Of a DNA stretch of 64,000 bases, positions 32,962-43,626 are shown one piece after another. The DNA is from Plicaturopsis crispa FD-325 SS-3 (taxonomy: Eukaryota; Basidiomycota; Agaricomycetes; Amylocorticiales; Amylocorticiaceae), in NCBI GenBank assembly GCA_000827205.1, contig KN832558.1, positions 1,346,972-1,410,971 of the forward strand. The letters run 5' to 3'. The notes under the pieces are model-generated. The model made no database searches and had not been told where the DNA came from. It saw nothing but the letters and a program-made list of their open reading frames with translations. The translations under genes were made by a program, and so were the position numbers. Position 1 is the stretch's first letter. Each line of letters begins with the position of its first letter.

Positions 32962-33084
32962 GTTGGCAGAGGGAAAGACAGTGGGGCGACAATTTGTGAT
33001 GTGAACTGGAGTCGTGACGTCACCGAGGTGTGGAGTAGGAACTTGGGGCAACAGAAGACCAAGAACCTGGTCTCCGGAGGAATA

Positions 33085-33349
33085 CTGTACTATACCGACC
33101 AAGTCTTCGGGTCACGGGTCACAGCGCCTTTCGAAGTGAAGAGATTTTCAAAATGTCACGGTCACATTAGCGTACAAAGAGTACAGATTTTCTTAATGTC
33201 ACAAATTCGCTCCAAAATAGGCTCGAAATAGCAATTTTGTTTCGAGATTTTGGACAAGTCACAGCAAAATTTCGCCCCCGAAGAGATGCCCAACTCTTCG
33301 GCCGTTGTCACAGGTCACAATGGCCGAAGACTTGGTCGGTATAGTACAG
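33085..33349. mobile_element. Tc1/mariner-like MITE (265 bases)
   Basis: The ends are perfect 26-base inverted repeats (33085-33110 and 33324-33349), starting CTGTACTATACCGACCAAG. A TA dinucleotide lies immediately outside both ends (33083-33084 and 33350-33351), the duplication of Tc1/mariner elements. Imperfect GTCAC-type inverted similarity continues inside. No coding capacity. It sits just upstream of the velvet gene. Confidence 0.85.
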
Positions 33350-33396
33350 TAGTAAAACCCGGGGTGGCTTCCGACGCATATGACTCCGGGGGTGAG

Positions 33397-33618
33397 CTTA
33401 GACCTGTAACCGGTCTGTCTATGAGAAAGGCAAGCTTGTCGATAGACAGACCTGTCGATCTGGGCTTGAATTTGGCAGGAGACGACAATTTCCGCATACG
33501 GCTTAAGTTTTTCGACCTGCCCTGCAGCAGGAACCACGTGCGCATTCCACCGATAGCATTCTGCGTCGTCGATGTGAGTTTCAAGATTGCGCTCATGCAA
33601 TATGTCTCGTCCGAGTAA
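33397..33618 (+). pseudogene. Inverted fragment of the RecQ helicase 5' region
   Basis: Read on the plus strand this stretch encodes DLGLNLAGDDNFRIRLKFF. The N-terminal exon of the helicase, read on the minus strand near 40040-39980, encodes ELGLNLAGDDKYHIRLKYI. The DNA is also alignable over about 130 bases with small indels, and weaker protein similarity (FKIALMQ against FMLIFAIQ) reaches the point where the helicase exon ends. No start or downstream helicase sequence accompanies it, so it is a relic or a repeat arm, not a gene. Confidence 0.7.
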
Positions 33619-33721
33619 CCCTCTGCTTCATATTTAATCGTCCTTGGTCTCTCGTTCTGTCTAGCCAAATGGCATCTCGTTAGCCTAGTAATCTCATTTT
33701 TTTTAACTTATTCCTCGTACT

Positions 33722-36700
33722 ATGCTATCTTCACAAGATATTTTATTGAGAGACGGCGCGCCGCCGCCTCCTACGCCTCGAGCATCCACCCCACCCGCGA
33801 AGCGTAGACGGAAATCCAGAAACCTAGCCTACAATGGTCCAGGAGCATCTGGCATGCACTCTTGGGCAGCCGATCCCATCCCAAACACGCCCTTCTCCCC
33901 GCCGACAAATTCATCTGCCATCCAAGTCCCGGGCCCCAGCAGTGCCCAGCATCAGCTCCCACCACATGACCAAATGCCATGGGGAGCTGAGGCATCGTTC
34001 TCGCCCCGTTCACCTTCCGGAACACCCCAATCCACCCGCGTGAGAGACCATGCTGCGAGCCAAAGCCGGACATTCCGCGAGCGCTCGCAAACCCAGACGC
34101 CGACAGATTTCCATCGGTTCTCTGAGCGCAGTGATCGCATGGGACGTTCGGAGAGGATCGCGGCGGCGTTGGAGATACTGCGCGGCGGTAGAATCACGCC
34201 GTGCGATCTACTCGTCGAGATATTGGACGCGTCAAACGCGGACATGTCGTATTTTCGGCGCGGGCTGTTTGAGAACGACAAGTTCACGACGGTTCTTGAT
34301 GCCGCGATGGATCTTCCGGAGGGGAAAGCACTCCTGGAGAAGTGGATGAGTGTGCATTCACTTCCTGTCATCTTGGGCACCGTCGCTCGGGAAATGGACT
34401 GTGTTACAAAGGCCCTTCGACTGACGGTCAACGACGTCACGCCAGCATTTCTCGACTCGTGGAGTTTGGAATCGACGGTGGGGAAAATAGGACGCGAGAA
34501 GGCGCCCGTCACGTTGCAAATTCTGCGGAGCGCGTCGCAGACGAAGTATGCACAGGAGAATAACAAGATAAAAAAAGACCCTACCACCGTGAGTGTATAT
34601 ACGGTCTCAAAGGTAGTAATACGAGCTAACAAATTGTATTAGTTCTGCTACGAGATGCTGAGTAACATCGGAAACCATCGTTCCCAAGTCAGCATGAATG
34701 TCCAGGCCGTCCAAGGTCTTTTCGTGTGGGCGACGGGCTGCTCGCGGCAGATGATTGATGTCCTACAAAAGACCGGGTTCTGCATCTCCTACGACTCCGT
34801 CCTGAAACTCGTCAACAACCTCGCTTCATGCTCCATTGAAGAGGCTCGTGCAGTCGCGTTTGGACCGCACGCGCTCTGCTGGGACAACATCAACATATCA
34901 ACATCTATTTTTACGGAGCAGCGGGCCAACGGGCCTACCAAGGTTCGCTCGGGAACTGTCGCTGTGCTGTACAAGCTCCCGAACGCGAAGCTTTCAGATA
35001 TGCTCCTTGCCCCCATGCTCGAACGTGCCAAAAAGGCGCCGGGCCTCTCGTTTAATGCAGACATCCGTCCTACTTTTGAGCAATCCACCGCGTTCAACTT
35101 CCAGCTCCTGATACACATCATACGCATTCTAATGCAGTTTACGAGTGGCTGGGAGTCGTACGAGGGAATACCCGAGCTCGAACACATGGTGCGACGCCTG
35201 CTCCCTCTCGGGTACTGCACCGAGCAGTTTCCTGTCCGTGCCTCGACGATCGAGGAGGCGTCAGTGGAAGGGAATATTGCTGTTCCCGAAGACGTTTACA
35301 TAGCCCAACTACGGATGATTTATTCGAACCTGGGCCTCTACGGAATACCTACCGCCCCAGACCAAAGTACGAACGCTCGGATCCGAGGTGCAAAATTGCT
35401 GCGTCGCAAGGACGTCAACCCGTTTACGCGCATGGAAGTATTTCAGCAGGCGTTCGGGCTCTTTCACTTGTGCCTCAACCTAATATGGGCGCTGCTTCAC
35501 ATGCACCGTGGTTCGATCAAACAGCTCGGTAGCCTCACCTATTTTTTTGCGCTGCTCGATAAGGCTCGACTTGGATGCGAGCACCCCGACTACCACACGC
35601 TTCTCGCTGCACTCATGCAGATTCTGAACGGCCTTATTCTCAGCGCCTGGAAGGAGGAATGCGGGCATGCGTCGTTTGCCTCATTTTCCGCATCGAAGCC
35701 TACCCCCGAGCAACTTTTAGAAAAGGCGCAGAATATTCTGAACCGATTCGGAACTCCTATGAACGAACCTCAGCCGCCTTTAACGAAGCCAAAGGCTGCG
35801 GATGCGATGGACGAGGATTCAGATGAGCCGGATTCAGGTTTGGATGCAGGCGCAGATGATTTGCCCCAAGCAGAACCGGGCGTGGCTCCAGGACCACAGT
35901 CGGAAGGTCCAGTTCCCCAGGATGATAACTCCCATCGAAATCTTCGCATACTCACGCGGGACTTACTCTATGTTGCTGAGCTCATACGTGCCATTTCTGA
36001 CGGTGATATCGGACGGATCGAAGATATTCTGGGGAGCTTAGCCATGATGTTTCGTGGCGCCGGCTCGAATAACTACTGTAGCGAGATTCTCCATTTTCTT
36101 CACAACCTCAAACACGTATGGACGCCGGAGTTTGCGTGTGTCATCTTTATCTTATGCTGTATGAAACCCCTCGCTGATTTCTATTCCAGAAATATAATGC
36201 GGGATATAATGCTCGTCAACACAACAGGCCTCGCCGGTCATTTCTTGCCTATAGATCTCAATATCGAGCACATCATTGGCTTTCTGAAGGTGATAGCAGC
36301 TTCTCTGTGTCGTGTATGATCGTCTCCTTACTATCTTCTCGTGTGCCGCAATGCAGATTCTATTCCTCGCAAAGGGGATGTACGGCTCTTGGGAGCGTCT
36401 CGGCGACATCTCTGCCGCAATTAATCATATACAGAAGGTCAAGAGACAGGTAGGATCATCGCTAGGTGCAAAATACCATGGACGGACCCACACGACACCT
36501 GACACCTCCGCCTCCGTATGGAAAGTTTATAACAAGGTGCAAGAGCTTGAACTACATACTTTCACTCCCCACCGCGACGGGAACGATTCAACCAAGCCCA
36601 CCGTCGACATCCTACTAGCCGGAGAGAAGAAACTCAAGAGCTCGACTCTCAGCACAATCAACAAGAAAATACGGTCGCTTGTGTCTGGGGTTAGTGTTGA

Positions 36701-36770
36701 AGATGAAGAGGATGATATCCCCGCTATGGGTATCAATGTGGCAAGCAACGAAACTGTAATCTCTGAGTAG
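33722..36770 (+). CDS. DUF6589-domain protein, probable mobile-element protein
   Basis: The gene has three exons. The first ends at the GTGAGT donor near 34589, the second runs from 34643 to about 36291 and joins as GFLK-ILFLAKGMYGSWERL, and the third ends at 36770. It encodes about 975 residues. The first 130 are Pro/Ser-rich with an AKRRRKSRN nuclear signal. The large middle part (GFCISYDSVLKLV, CWDNINISTSIF, FNADIRPTFEQSTAFNFQLL, GSLTYFFALLDKARLGCEHP) matches what I know as DUF6589. The WDN and later DL/GH residues would suit an RNase H-like fold, but this is inference. An acidic linker near residue 680 separates a C-terminal part with NIEHIIGFLK. The family is multi-copy in Agaricomycete genomes and usually unannotated. 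The stop lies 45 bases from the helicase stop. Confidence 0.8.
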
Positions 36771-36815
36771 ATTTCATTAATTCATTAATAGAAAGACAAT
36801 TAATATGCAGTTGTT

Positions 36816-39800
36816 TTACGGAGGTGCACTCATCAACGGGAGCACAAGATGTACCCGTTTGACTCTCTTCACGGCTGGTTCCGATGTGCCATCGCCTGGC
36901 TCGGATACACTGGCATTAACAGGCGATGTGTTCTCCTTTCCATCGGGGGCCTTCCGTTTCATTCGCGGGGTTGGTCTTGGGCGAACCACAGCCGGCGTAC
37001 TGCTCTCTGCAACTGTCAAAGTGATTGGGTCAGCAGTGGGCGCTTTTCCTTTACCTTTTCTTGCTCTCGCCGCTGCCGCTGCCGCCGCTATCTCCCCACG
37101 TTTTCTCTCTCCCTTGGCCTTCTTCTCAGCCCTCTCTCTCTCCAGCGTGGCCTTCCTCTCCACGCGCTTGCTCTCCAAAGCCGCCTTCTTCTCCGCTCTA
37201 TCTCTCTCCAGCGCCGCCTTCTTTTCTGCGCGGACCCTATCCGCCTCCTCCTTCTCTACCAGTTTCCGCAGCCTTTCGCGCTCTTTGATTATCGTCTTTT
37301 CCACCTCGATGTTGTGCAGCACCAGCGCCTTCGCATCCTCCAGGCCTTGGCTATACTCGGAGATGACCGTGAAAATTGACGCGCCCCATTTAGCTTTCCA
37401 AGCTTCGGTCTCGTCCAAGGCAGATATAACATCTGGAACTGCTTGGATCGAGGTATGGGTCATCCTCGACAGCAGTTTGATGGATACGTTGTCGATGATG
37501 TATGAGGCAGGACGGACAGCGCGGAGGACATCGGAGGAATGGACTCTTGCCCGCCAGTCGACGAGAAGGTTCTCGAGTGGTGCGCGCTCGGGGACTGGTC
37601 GGTATTTTGCTGCTGGTTTACGGGTCGCCAGGAGCGACTCGCAAACTTCCGAATGCACACTACCAGTGGGTGCCGGTGCTGCTAGGAAAAAACTGCCGAG
37701 ATCGAAGCCATTCCCGGTATGTTGGTCACAGCACCATTCGTTCGTGTATTTGAGGGCTAAGAATTACTATCAGCATTCATTCATTCGATACTACTGTACC
37801 TACACGGAATACGCGCACCTGTATCACTGTGGTCACTTAGATAGGTGGCCCAGAACTGCCGAAGACAGCCTTTTGTCTGTGCATATGCCAGAGATGTACG
37901 GCCTATGCGATCCTGTTTGCTGCGATTCCCATCCTTTGGCTTTGGCATATGTGGCTTATCCGGATCCAAATCACCTTCGTCTACTTCAATTTCGACATCG
38001 TATGCCCAAGGTTCTGCCATGAGAAGGAAAAGAGCACAAGTTGTCGCGTCGCGGCCTCCGCGACCGGCGCGCTGAACAGAATCAGTGCCGTTGGTTGGTA
38101 CGCCATATTGAATGATCCTCTCGATACCAGGGATGTCGAGACCCTGAAAACGTTACGAGAACCATTAGAATGATGTCCAAGTGAGCATCGTACTAAGTTA
38201 TAACACTAACCGTCGAGGCGCCAGAAGTGGCACATAGGATCCGGCATCGTCCTGTGGGTGAAGCGAAGTCCGCAAAGAGCTTATTCAGGTACGTGGGCGA
38301 CATTCCCGAGTGATAGTGCATGACAATCCCTGAGTCGCGAAGCTCCTTTGAGAGGCGGGCGTCGAGATATGATGATACGTCACTTGATTGCGGCCTGGAG
38401 TCGTGGAAGACGACGGTCTTCTTGATCTGTCCCATCGACTCGGTATAGTTTTCCGGGACGAGGAAGTCAAGGTTCGAGAGATTACTTGCACCCCCTACCA
38501 GTGGAACCGTCGCATATGTGATGTTCGGACGGTTAGTTGACGTCCGAACAGTAAAGCATTGCTGATGCATTAGTGTCTTCTCCTTCACGATACGGAGTGT
38601 ATGGTCGGTCAAGGATGCAGAGAGGAGCTGGAAAGGGGTTCCCTTCTGTAGAAGGACGCGCAAATTACCGATTTGGCCCCATGCAGGGCGGTACGCGGGC
38701 TCGCCATGTTTTGAGATGCCCGCCGTGTAAATCGTGTGAGCTTCGTCCACATGCACGCGCTTCACAAGACTGACGAAGCGCTGATCCGAGAGAAGGTGGG
38801 CCATTCTCGGGAGGTGTCCGTCATGCATAAAAAGCTGCTCGGGTGAGATGATGAGCAAAGAGTACATCCCTTCACGAATATTCTGTGAAATGCGACGGTC
38901 GGTATTCAGCAAAGGAACAGGTGGAAGAGGCGGAATTTCATGTCTACCTTCCAGAGCGCATCATCACGAGGTGTATCCCCATTTATTGCTATTGCTCGCA
39001 CTCCGAGTCTAGCATAATCATTGACCTGTAATTATAGCCATGTGTATTGAGCTGCCGCGCCACACTGTAAGGATATGCTAGTACTCACCTGTGCTGACTG
39101 CAGGCGTTTTAACGGTGAAACAATAAACGAGATTGCCTCCGGATGTAGAAGGCATGGTATGGCAGCGATAAGTGTCTTGCCTGAGCCAGTACCGGCAATG
39201 ACAACGCTGTCCTCGTTACGAAGAGTCGGCATAGCCGCCTCGAGTTGAAATGTGCGCGGGACCAGTTTTCGATCGGTTACTGCATGGACCAGAAGGCAAG
39301 CTCTCCAACAGTCGTTCTGCTGCTGCGGAGAAAGCGTCTTGAGTAGTTCCTCGTCCGGCTCGTGCTCGAAAGGAAGCTCGGCTAGAGCTTCGAGCATCAT
39401 GTCCGTGTCCGAGAGGTCTCGGATGGCCTTCAGAGTGCGATCCAAAACCATAAGTCGGCCAGATTCCTGCATGTCCTGGGAAGCTGCAACTTCGTCATCT
39501 CCTGTGATTTCCTCTGTGCGTATTAGGAGGCCGTCCGGAAGATGAATAAAGTTTTCGGGAGCCGGGAAAAAGCCATTGGGTGGGTTAGGGATGAAGTCCC
39601 AGCATTCAAATAGTACATATGTCTCATAAGATAGGCTGCTGTCCATTATAGGATCATTCATTAGTGGTATAGAACCCACATAAATACCATGGAGAGGGAA
39701 CAAATAGCAATATGTATCTTCGAGCGCAATTTGCACGGCGCGTCGGCAGGTTCCGATCTCCGACACATAGCGCGTCGAGCAACGTCTGAAAGTTGTCAGT

Positions 39801-40324
39801 AACTTCCGGGGGCCCATTTTCTAAGGTTCAATCTTAACTGAATAGCGAATATAAGCATGAAACGAACATCCATGGCAAATTTTGCATGCCAATTCGGTGA
39901 TATGACACTTGTAGCAGCATGAACTTTGCTACCGCCCGTGCTACTTGGTGACGCGTCAAGATCACGCACGATTAAGGGTAGGCAAATATACTTAAGCCGA
40001 ATGTGGTATTTGTCGTCTCCCGCCAAATTCAAACCCAGTTCGGCCAGTCTGGATATCGACGCTTGCTCATTATCCAGAGTGGTCACCAGTCTAGGGTGAG
40101 CTTGGTAAGGAAGTGCGACTTCAGGCCCTGGTCCGGCTTTTCATCTCGTATTCTCTCCGCCTCTTCGTAGGCACCGCATGGGAACGGAGGTTCTATTGAA
40201 GTCAGAGACAGGCAAGATCTTCGAGCGTTTGTCGAGACTTGAAATGCACATCCCTCTACATGGTAGGACGCGACATGTCGGATCGCAACACGTCTAAATC
40301 CGAAGCTGGTAATGATCTCTGTAG
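36816..40324 (-). CDS. RecQ-type DNA helicase with coiled-coil tail; 5' part possibly broken
   Basis: This is an ATP-dependent superfamily 2 helicase. Conserved motifs are Walker A VIAGTGSGKTLIAAIP, Ia FIVSPLKRLQ, motif II VHVDEAHTIYTAG with the RecQ-like AYRPAWGQI, motif III LLSASLTDH, and motif VI QRAGRGGRD. A zinc-knuckle-like KGCLRQFWATYL continues across an intron as NEWCCDQHTGNG. The last 280 residues form a long charged coiled coil (repeats of AEKKAALERDR) ending VHLVLPLMSAPP. Exons join in frame; for example, an intron at 38144-38210 gives TSGAST-GLDIPGIE. The 5' end is unclear. An open exon near 40324-40110 (CGAYEEAERIRDEKPDQGL) is one base out of frame with the next exon, with no usable splice pair. 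The helicase may therefore be a decayed copy or have an undetected upstream structure. Confidence 0.75.
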
Positions 40325-41050: not shown

Positions 41051-43626
41051 ATGGATTCCCGTCATATTCGGCGCCGCTCTGCTGCCCAGAGCCAACATCT
41101 CAAAGGTCAACCAATACAGGCGCATCCCCTCGCGGCGGATAGCCCAGCCGAGCAGCCGAATCCATTCGAAGAGAATGAGCACAATACCGTATTCGTGCCC
41201 TTGCACATAAGGCGACAGAGGGTGAGTTCCGGACAGGCCGCGTATTTCTTTCTTGTCCTGATTTTAATTTATCTCCAGGATGCCGAAAACGCAGGCGCGA
41301 CATCCACCACAAATTTGGTACAGCCTCAGTCTGGCACTGCAAGTGTTGCAGCCAAAGTATGCGTAATTGATTTTCGGACGGACGCGCTTAGTTAACCACC
41401 CGTCCGCGCCTAGTACTCACTTTCAGCCGATCCCCGCTCATGGGGTATCAATCTTTCGCCCAACCAGGCCGACCCGGATGATATCCTGCATAATCCGGAC
41501 CCACGACGCGACAGTATGTACGATGGTGGAGGCAGCCTCTTCACGAAACGAGCCCTCGCGAATGTTGGATGCTTGGTCATTCTGGGCGTTGGGCTCGTGG
41601 CACTATTGTACGGCTCTCTTTTTGCAACGGCCGTGCCTCCTGAGTACTGAATTTCAACGTAATTTATTGTAGCGCGGGCTATCCGCTGACAGTCTATTTA
41701 AAGAACCATAAATTATCTACTCTCGGTGGTTTCAATACTGGCGGTATTAACGGCAGTGGGCAGGTGCGTCGCGCAACCGTTCGCCGCATCTTTTTTCTGC
41801 TGACGGTATGCGTCAGATCCCGAGTATGCATGGCAATTGGGGCTTGATCGATGTTGAGACCCCAAACGAGGCCAAAACGATTCAATCCAAACATGACGGG
41901 GCGGATCTACAGCTGGTCTTCAGTGACGAATTCAACACGGACGGACGGACGTTCTATCCGGGTGACGACCCGTACTGGGAAGCTGTGGATCTACACTACT
42001 GGTCGGTGGGTGCCGCCGCTCGAGATAATCTGCGTCAAAAGTTGATGTCCTCACGCATAAAATTGTGCGGTATTAGACCGGGAACTACGAGTGGTACGAT
42101 CCTGCAGCAATCACGACGTCAAACGGGTCCCTCAAGATCACGTTGGAGAAAAAGGAGACTCATAATTTGCACTACCAGGGCGGTATGATGAGCACTTGGA
42201 ACAAATTCTGCTTCACCGGAGGGTACGTTGAAACGAGCGTGGTTCTTCCCGGTGTAAACAACATCGTTGGGCTCTGGCCCGCCGTGTGGACCATGGGCAA
42301 CCTCGGGCGCGCAGGATACGGCGCAAGCCTCGATGGCATGGTCAGTAACCCATCAAGTCCCAATCTCACCCGCACGATGGCTTACTACAAGCCATATGCC
42401 AGTGGCCGTATACTTATGACGCTTGCGACGTCGGGACTGTGAAGAATCAAACGAAGGACGGACTGCCGGCTGCTGCGACGGTCAATGGGGACGCAGGGTA
42501 CGGGGGTGTGCTCTCCTACCTCCCAGGACAACGGCTCTCCCGCTGCACCTGCCCGGGCGAAGACCACCCAGGCCCAAAGCACTCCGACGGCACGTATGTC
42601 GGACGGAGCGCGCCTGAAATTGACATGTTTGAAGCACAGGTACGTGTGCCAGGCTTTGCGGAGATCCCCTGTAGCCTCACCATGCGGGTCTCTATCTTGT
42701 AGATTTCAGGGGGCTCGGGGCAGGTTTCGCAGTCCGGGCAGTGGGCACCATTTAATGCCGGCTATACGTGGTTCAACACATCGGACAACGAAGTCATCGC
42801 CGACCCATCCATCTCTGTTCAGAACACATATATTGGGGGTATATACCAGCAGGCTACATCTGTTGTCACAAATACTGGTGAGCTTTCCGGACGTGCGCAT
42901 TGCGACAGCGACGATACTGAACTTTTTTCCAGATCAAGAATGCTACGAGGGAAACGGAGGTTGCTTCTCTGTATATGGGGTTGAATACAAACCCGGTTTC
43001 GATAACGCGGTAAGTTTGTATTCGAATAGACGCCCGGCATATTCTGCGACTTACTCTCCGCTCGCGAACAGTACATTAGCTGGGTCGCAAACAACAAGAT
43101 CAGCTGGACTTTGAACTATGGGGGCGTAGCAGCCGACCCACGAGTAGAGATTTCCGCAAGGCCTGTCCCGCAAGAGCCCATGGTATGTCTCAGTTGACAT
43201 GCCAGTGTGTCGAGTCCATATTCTCATGTTGCCTGTCTTCCTAGTACCTCCTCGCCAATCTCGGAATGTCCAAAAATTTCGGAGCCGTCGACTTGGATCA
43301 CTTGCCTTTCCCTGTAAGCTGGCCATTTCATGTCCTGTCGTCTCGTCAGCACAGCGCTAAACGCCTGCATGCAAAGGTCACAATGTCGGTGGACTACATC
43401 AGAGTCTACCAGCACAAAGACGCAATCAACGTCGGCTGCGATCCTCCCGATTTCCCAACAGAGGCGTATATAAACAAGTGCGTGAGGATTCATCAGCTTG
43501 ACAGCGATATGGCTCACGACGTGTCGGATCAGATATATCGAGGCGTATACGAACCCGAATCTGACTACTTGGGTGGACGATTACAAACAGACGGTACCCA
43601 AGAACAGCTTCCTCGGTGAATGTTAA
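41051..43626 (+). CDS. KRE6: Kre6/Skn1-type beta-glucan synthesis-associated GH16-like membrane protein
   Basis: This type II membrane protein of the secretory pathway is required for cell-wall beta-1,6-glucan. The start [15 protein letters not shown] opens a basic and polar cytosolic region of about 150 residues. A single membrane span follows ([16 protein letters not shown]). The lumenal SKN1 domain begins [20 protein letters not shown] and contains [34 protein letters not shown] and [12 protein letters not shown]. The GH16-type catalytic signature is EIDMFEAQ. The end is [10 protein letters not shown] at 43626, reached after several short introns. The sequence appears intact, and the two acidic catalytic positions of the ExDxxE motif are retained. 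Confidence 0.92.

Follow-up and report, generated by a model that had tools for sequence, protein, structure and literature searches.

Analysis of a 64,000-nt stretch of the Plicaturopsis crispa FD-325 SS-3 genome (hereafter the window) revealed that the block between positions 33399 and 40093 is a genuine, complete transposon carrying a DUF6589 gene and a RecQ-type helicase gene. With high confidence, we interpret it as a DNA transposon that is intact, probably autonomous, and of the AcademH kind. Its borders were defined by inverted ends and a flanking 9-bp target duplication:

33399..40093, no strand assigned: whole element, 6695 bp, TAGAC...GTCTA
33390..33398, no strand assigned: left target duplication GGGTGAGCT, same sequence as the right one
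40094..40102, no strand assigned: right target duplication GGGTGAGCT, same sequence as the left one
33399..33522, plus strand: left terminal inverted repeat, alignable part, inner edge approximate
39970..40093, minus strand: right terminal inverted repeat, inner edge approximate

The element opens with TAGAC (33399) and closes with GTCTA (40093), each tip directly abutting a copy of GGGTGAGCT. Taken alone, the window duplication can be read as 9 or 10 bp, since a T follows on either side; it was taken as 9 bp because the tips are then symmetric and the other copies fit this length. The inverted repeats match at 79% over 86 nt and are alignable for approximately 120 bp inward from the tips. The original prediction, a roughly 7-kb transposon in which a DUF6589 gene and a helicase gene converge, is borne out. 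The inverted copies of one sequence that were said to bracket the genes are also real and correspond to the terminal inverted repeats, but the exact 9-bp duplication places the borders at 33399 and 40093 instead of 33397 and 40324.

In the 33.2-Mb genome searched (49 contigs), the left and right repeats yielded 14 and 9 DNA matches, respectively, self-matches included. An empty site was found for none of ten insertion sites joined as one query against the same genome, nor for the C29 site queried alone; these queries matched only their own loci, one flank, or the duplicate C7 locus of C29.

The genes and candidate residues of the element are positioned as follows:

33722..36770, plus strand: DUF6589 gene, likely transposase (exons 33722-34588, 34643-36289, 36357-36770; 975 aa, no internal stop)
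34883-34885, 35360-35362 and 36083-36085 (or 36005-36007), plus strand: candidate catalytic acids D, D and E (or D), from the alignment
36816..39817, minus strand: RecQ-type helicase gene (exons 39089-39817, 38948-39025, 38211-38882, 37819-38143, 36816-37756; 914 aa, no internal stop, predicted model)

Both gene models are predicted and spliced at GT..AG introns, the DUF6589 model starting from the ATG at 33722. Together with Pfam and profile matches, they confirm the predicted tail-to-tail arrangement, with 45 bases between the two stops. The DUF6589 domain was matched by PF20231 (E 1.4e-85), and the helicase domains PF00270 and PF00271 were matched in a Pfam scan of eight window pieces. The spliced RecQ model contains the helicase motifs GTGSGKT, DEAH and QRAGRGGRD, a six-sequence helicase profile matches RecQ structures (best 4.7e-19), and one exon matched recQ_fam at 9.7e-11, which is below the curated whole-protein cut-off of that model.

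The inverted sequence had been proposed to be the 5' coding region of the helicase, a view that the gene model does not support: the predicted RecQ start (39817) lies deeper inside the element than the inverted repeat. The stretch GLNLAGDD, which is located in these repeats, was rejected as a shared protein, since it lies outside both predicted coding regions and its reading frame is interrupted or changed in two other copies, C23 and C5:939k. Judged from these sequences, the GLNLAGDD match is conserved end DNA and not protein.

The expectation that DUF6589 genes elsewhere would have a RecQ gene nearby held within this genome, where a RecQ locus was found within 6 kb at 19 of 28 DUF6589 loci, compared to an expectation of about 1.3% for random sites. 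Sixteen of these paired loci are arranged tail to tail and three head to head; the remaining nine DUF6589 loci have no RecQ inside 6 kb. The 28 loci derive from 56 matches to the DUF6589 profile and include one weak locus (C7:1702324, under the curated cut-off). The RecQ loci, 33 after clustering, were obtained with two window exons and the recQ_fam profile (34 of 75 candidates scored), and the pairing count left out 7 of 38 recQ_fam rows, all of which overlap or adjoin listed loci. Host RecQ genes would be expected among the 14 RecQ loci without a nearby DUF6589. The recurrence of the pair at 19 of 28 loci indicates that RecQ is not chance cargo. For annotators, the finding means that DUF6589 and RecQ genes occurring as a pair in such genomes probably belong to mobile elements, not to the repair machinery of the host.

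Related ends were gathered by a DNA search of the genome, and both ends were found for 16 copies; this set is part of the family, as many further DUF6589 loci lack located ends. A search of the genome for the 13-base tip pattern gave 33 occurrences, versus 7 for a reversed control. A 9-bp duplication flanks 11 of the 16 two-ended copies (10 exact, one with a single mismatch), and no clean duplication was seen in the other five. Besides the window element, these copies are:

C5:939k copy: exact 9-bp duplication GGCCTCTAT
C28 copy: exact 9-bp duplication GACTCCGAG
C1:3104217-3111682 copy: exact 9-bp duplication GTCGTAGTC
C21 copy: exact 9-bp duplication GATTCAAGC
C17 copy: exact 9-bp duplication AATTGTGGT
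C6:321k copy: exact 9-bp duplication GGAAAGAGC
C29 copy: exact 9-bp duplication GCCGCTCGA
C10 copy: exact 9-bp duplication GGCTGCGGG
C14 copy: exact 9-bp duplication TGTGTAGAT
C8 copy: duplication with one mismatch, CTAGCACAG/CGAGCACAG
C7:102822 copy: 7 of 9 duplication positions match; duplicate of the C29 locus
C16:349334 copy: same 9 bp, with 4 extra bases
C13:213425 and C1:930951 copies: no target duplication seen
C6:1.24 Mb copy: inverted orientation, next to a withheld stretch of sequence, no clean duplication

Nine single ends (C23, C3, C12, C9, C7:1703k, C16:700k, C5:331k, C15:512k and C5:312k) stand outside the 16-copy count.

Seven shortened copies (five of 81-113 bp, one of 659 bp and one of 768 bp) retain both tips and the 9-bp duplication. 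As these are too small to hold the genes, they either became shorter at their present sites or were mobilised by something that acts in trans on the tips. The inner junctions of the C8 and C6:321k copies are one base apart and their duplications differ, a combination that favours movement as a short unit. In addition, near identity was seen among certain other ends (99% over 454 and 625 bp, 97% over 475 bp), an indication that part of the family moved fairly recently.

Comparison of the window with C23 gave a dN of 0.105, a dS of 2.57 and a ratio of 0.04 for DUF6589 exon 2, and a dN of 0.17 and a dS of 2.03 for the RecQ exon, both dS values being near saturation and the ratios accordingly rough; further comparisons, with C5:939k (DUF6589) and C3 (RecQ), were saturated. 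Both proteins seem to be maintained, bearing the mark of purifying selection.

Within exon 2 of DUF6589, residues D81, D240 and D455 are invariant in 11 aligned copies, the alignment at D81 being doubtful in three of the 11 rows (L004-L006), whose open stretch begins right there. In a 12-row alignment, E481 of the same exon is covered by 11 rows, nine of which keep it and two of which have H or Q instead. These acids may constitute a DDE triad. A single-sequence structure model of exon 2 was poor (pLDDT 39), a search of solved structures (PDB) with the DUF6589 profile returned nothing convincing (best E 0.11), and no relatives were found in viral contigs. DUF6589 is named nowhere in the literature searched, where papers retrieved with PF20231, IPR046496 or 'DUF6589 domain-containing' were unrelated by title. 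As the best candidate that the element encodes, the DUF6589 protein is likely its transposase, and a domain of unknown function would thereby gain a likely role. In the mechanism that we propose, it would act as a DDE-type transposase, with cleavage at TAGAC/GTCTA and a 9-bp stagger on insertion. During transposition, RecQ would unwind the ends or aid repair of the donor gap.

Mutator-like elements (MULEs) usually show 9-bp duplications and long inverted repeats, and the window element, with a duplication of about 9 bp and long inverted repeats, might accordingly be regarded as a MULE that acquired a RecQ gene. However, a MULE domain was matched neither in the eight window pieces at E values up to 0.1 nor, up to E 10, in 11 homologues of DUF6589, and RecQ accompanies DUF6589 at 19 of 28 loci. 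Given the lack of such a match in these two sets and the recurrent association, a Mutator-like identity is highly improbable and was rejected.

Terminal inverted repeats, as present here, are a defining trait of AcademH, a lineage of Academ DNA transposons reportedly defined by Kojima in 2020. One citing paper attributes to AcademH duplications of 9 or 10 bp and an encoded helicase (PMC10045372), in agreement with the 9-bp duplication in 11 of 16 two-ended copies. Another describes DEAD and Helicase_C domains and a low copy number in Basidiomycota (PMC10799480); the former correspond to the SF2 helicase found here (PF00270, PF00271, RecQ-type), and the latter was counted as a likeness. Moreover, fungal Academ copies were described in 2019 as encoding DEAD/DEAH and recQ_fam domains and as often being annotated as host genes (PMC6416283); the window element has these domains in common with them, as far as a comparison by description goes. 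Putative non-autonomous Academ copies are also mentioned for Marasmius oreades (PMC8290104). The window element is therefore probably a new AcademH member. By the same descriptions, the combination of DUF6589 and RecQ is probably not new, fungal Academ elements with DEAD/recQ_fam domains and AcademH elements with a helicase having already been published, and the statement that no described element has this pair probably does not stand (PMC6416283, PMC10045372).

The AcademH assignment presupposes that DUF6589 is homologous to the Academ transposase, and the literature searched does not mention DUF6589. The two genes could instead define a superfamily distinct from Academ, sharing only the helicase and the 9-bp duplication with AcademH, which we consider unlikely in view of the agreement in both DEAD/recQ_fam domains (PMC6416283) and duplications of 9-10 bp (PMC10045372). 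A further fungal group with a RecQ helicase is KolobokH, which is described only from fungi in PMC9587614, and the same source reports one red-alga Kolobok with RecQ on the opposite strand. The RecQ helicase is thus common to KolobokH and the window element, but the Kolobok target duplication is described there as TTAA (4 bp), in contrast to the 9-bp, non-TTAA duplications observed here, and the KolobokH helicase is located downstream of the transposase domain, whereas the window element carries it as a separate convergent gene. The contradiction in target duplication leaves a KolobokH identity with a practically negligible chance, and it was rejected in favour of the AcademH assignment.

Examination of the ends of the element revealed palindromes close to both tips, together with a second copy of the terminal 8-mer:

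33412..33452, plus strand: left-end palindrome, arms GGTCTGTCTAT (33412-33422) and ATAGACAGACC (33442-33452); 0 of 200 shuffles as long; z -4.53
40048..40078, minus strand: right-end palindrome, arms TCTGGATA (40071-40078) and TATCCAGA (40048-40055); 3 of 200 shuffles as long; z -1.28
33400..33455, plus strand: left terminal 8-mer AGACCTGT (33400-33407) and direct copy behind the palindrome (33448-33455); 8 of 8 match
40043..40092, minus strand: right terminal 8-mer AGACTGGT (40085-40092) and copy AGACTGGC (40043-40050); 7 of 8 match

Each of the 17 ends that were tested first has a palindrome, whose arms measure 7-11 bp and start 14-17 bp from the tip. Because similarity to the window ends was the basis on which the ends had been gathered, this sharing partly reflects common descent and is not independent evidence; more telling is whether the two arms vary together. 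Per end, between 0 and 16 of 200 dinucleotide shuffles matched the palindrome length. Twenty-one ends were reduced to 15 that are distinct over 58 bp. After two rows had been re-gapped by hand, 145 of 158 cells in these 15 ends were standard pairs, a value equalled in none of 5000 re-pairings of the arms, and two-sided changes were found in four palindrome pairs. The alignment that was not re-gapped gave weaker support overall: 89.2% of cells were paired, compared to 23-40% with a slid partner, and none of 500 shuffles reached the observed pairing percentage, covariation score or number of cells with two-sided changes, kinship among the ends meaning that such shuffle fractions are not probabilities. 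The number of two-sided pairs was 3 versus 1.8 in shuffles (71 of 500 reaching 3), that of further pair types was 3 versus 3.8 (473 of 500 reaching 3), and three two-sided pairs persisted when the partner was slid by one column, with a score of 0.095 versus 0.118 unslid. DNA folding of ten ends gave z values from -7.30 to -0.44, four of the ten being weaker than -1.3, and the best fold of the C28 left end is a structure other than the palindrome.

In the lineage of the window element, all 15 distinct ends carry a copy of the terminal 8-mer behind the palindrome, identical to it at 7 or 8 of the 8 positions, as determined with a widened search rule, the first rule having missed two of them. Five 8-mer variants are each matched by their own copy, at 110 of 120 positions versus a mean of 91.6 when shuffled (0 of 20000 shuffles), the rule demanding AG[AC]C so that the free comparison covers the last letters only. 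Since this copy overlaps the second arm on its outer side, palindrome and 8-mer are not independent features.

The bacterial IS200/IS605 elements carry a hairpin near each end and short sequences tied to each terminus, and transpose as single strands by an HUH mechanism without target duplication. The window element resembles them in its end hairpins and terminus-linked sequences, by analogy only, and no HUH domain was found in the Pfam scan of the eight window pieces. The ends might, as a speculation that we consider improbable, be recognised partly through DNA structure, with RecQ unwinding extruding the palindrome and the 8-mer copy locally directing the enzyme to the site of cleavage. Such a reading would account for the concerted variation of the 8-mer and its copy within an end, despite the differences between the two ends of a given element, and, if true, would imply helicase-assisted, structure-guided end recognition in a eukaryotic DNA transposon. 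Alternatively, the palindromes may be paired protein sites. By visual inspection, the smallest derivatives retain at both ends the tip, the loop and the first arm, whereas in at least one end the second arm, wholly or in part, and the 8-mer copy have been lost; provided that they moved in their present form, the lost parts are dispensable in a strict sense. Together, the intact copy and the derivatives of 81-113 bp point to minimal ends with which to ask why these transposons keep a helicase, a question into which the palindromes, if they matter, would offer a direct way.

Palindromic ends of this kind may not have been described before, and they extend to distant relatives in the same genome. 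In a head-to-head lineage with 23-24% protein identity, three related ends, unlike those of the window in sequence, have a palindrome 15 bp in (CCAGCCGCTACG/CGTAGCGGCTGG); an A-to-T change in one copy is matched by its other arm, and one end of this lineage folded with a z of -7.30. The distant C6:1.24 Mb copy has arms CCAGTCTCTATAC/GTATAGAGACTGG separated by a loop of about 100 bases. The 8-mer repeat was not seen in either the head-to-head ends or the C6:1.24 Mb copy.

As a minor observation, two features that point to a fungal genome are a SKN1/KRE6 gene neighbouring the window element and the short introns of both element genes.

Related copies with other arrangements were encountered elsewhere in the same genome. 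At the distant copy near 1.24 Mb on contig C6 (stretch L053, 300-520 and 7270-7400), the 9-bp flank recurs, within the readable part of the region, in inverted orientation, where it adjoins another element end, a pattern as after an inversion. In a further copy (stretch L049, 574-6886), the end type that borders the DUF6589 gene in the window was found to border the RecQ gene, not DUF6589, and the interior seems to be flipped relative to the ends. At three pairs (C1:2474k, C14:636k and C15:211k; stretches L004-L006) the DUF6589 and RecQ genes lie head to head, not tail to tail; the end sequence of these pairs differs from that of the window's element, and a palindrome is again present.

The full-length element on contig C1 is adjoined, beside C1:3111682, by a 46-bp piece composed of both tips (stretch L036, 1596-1659). 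This piece, which is accompanied by a third copy of the 9-bp duplication of the element, has the appearance of a tandem copy that has shrunk.

Within the window, a separate 269-bp inverted-repeat element (33083-33351) lies immediately left of the transposon. Its ends are perfect over 28 bp (TACTGTACTATACC...), one of them has matches on contigs C13, C21, C15 and C1, and the element is probably a MITE with a TA target. To the right of the transposon, the next gene found encodes a SKN1/KRE6-family beta-glucan synthesis protein (41751-42439).
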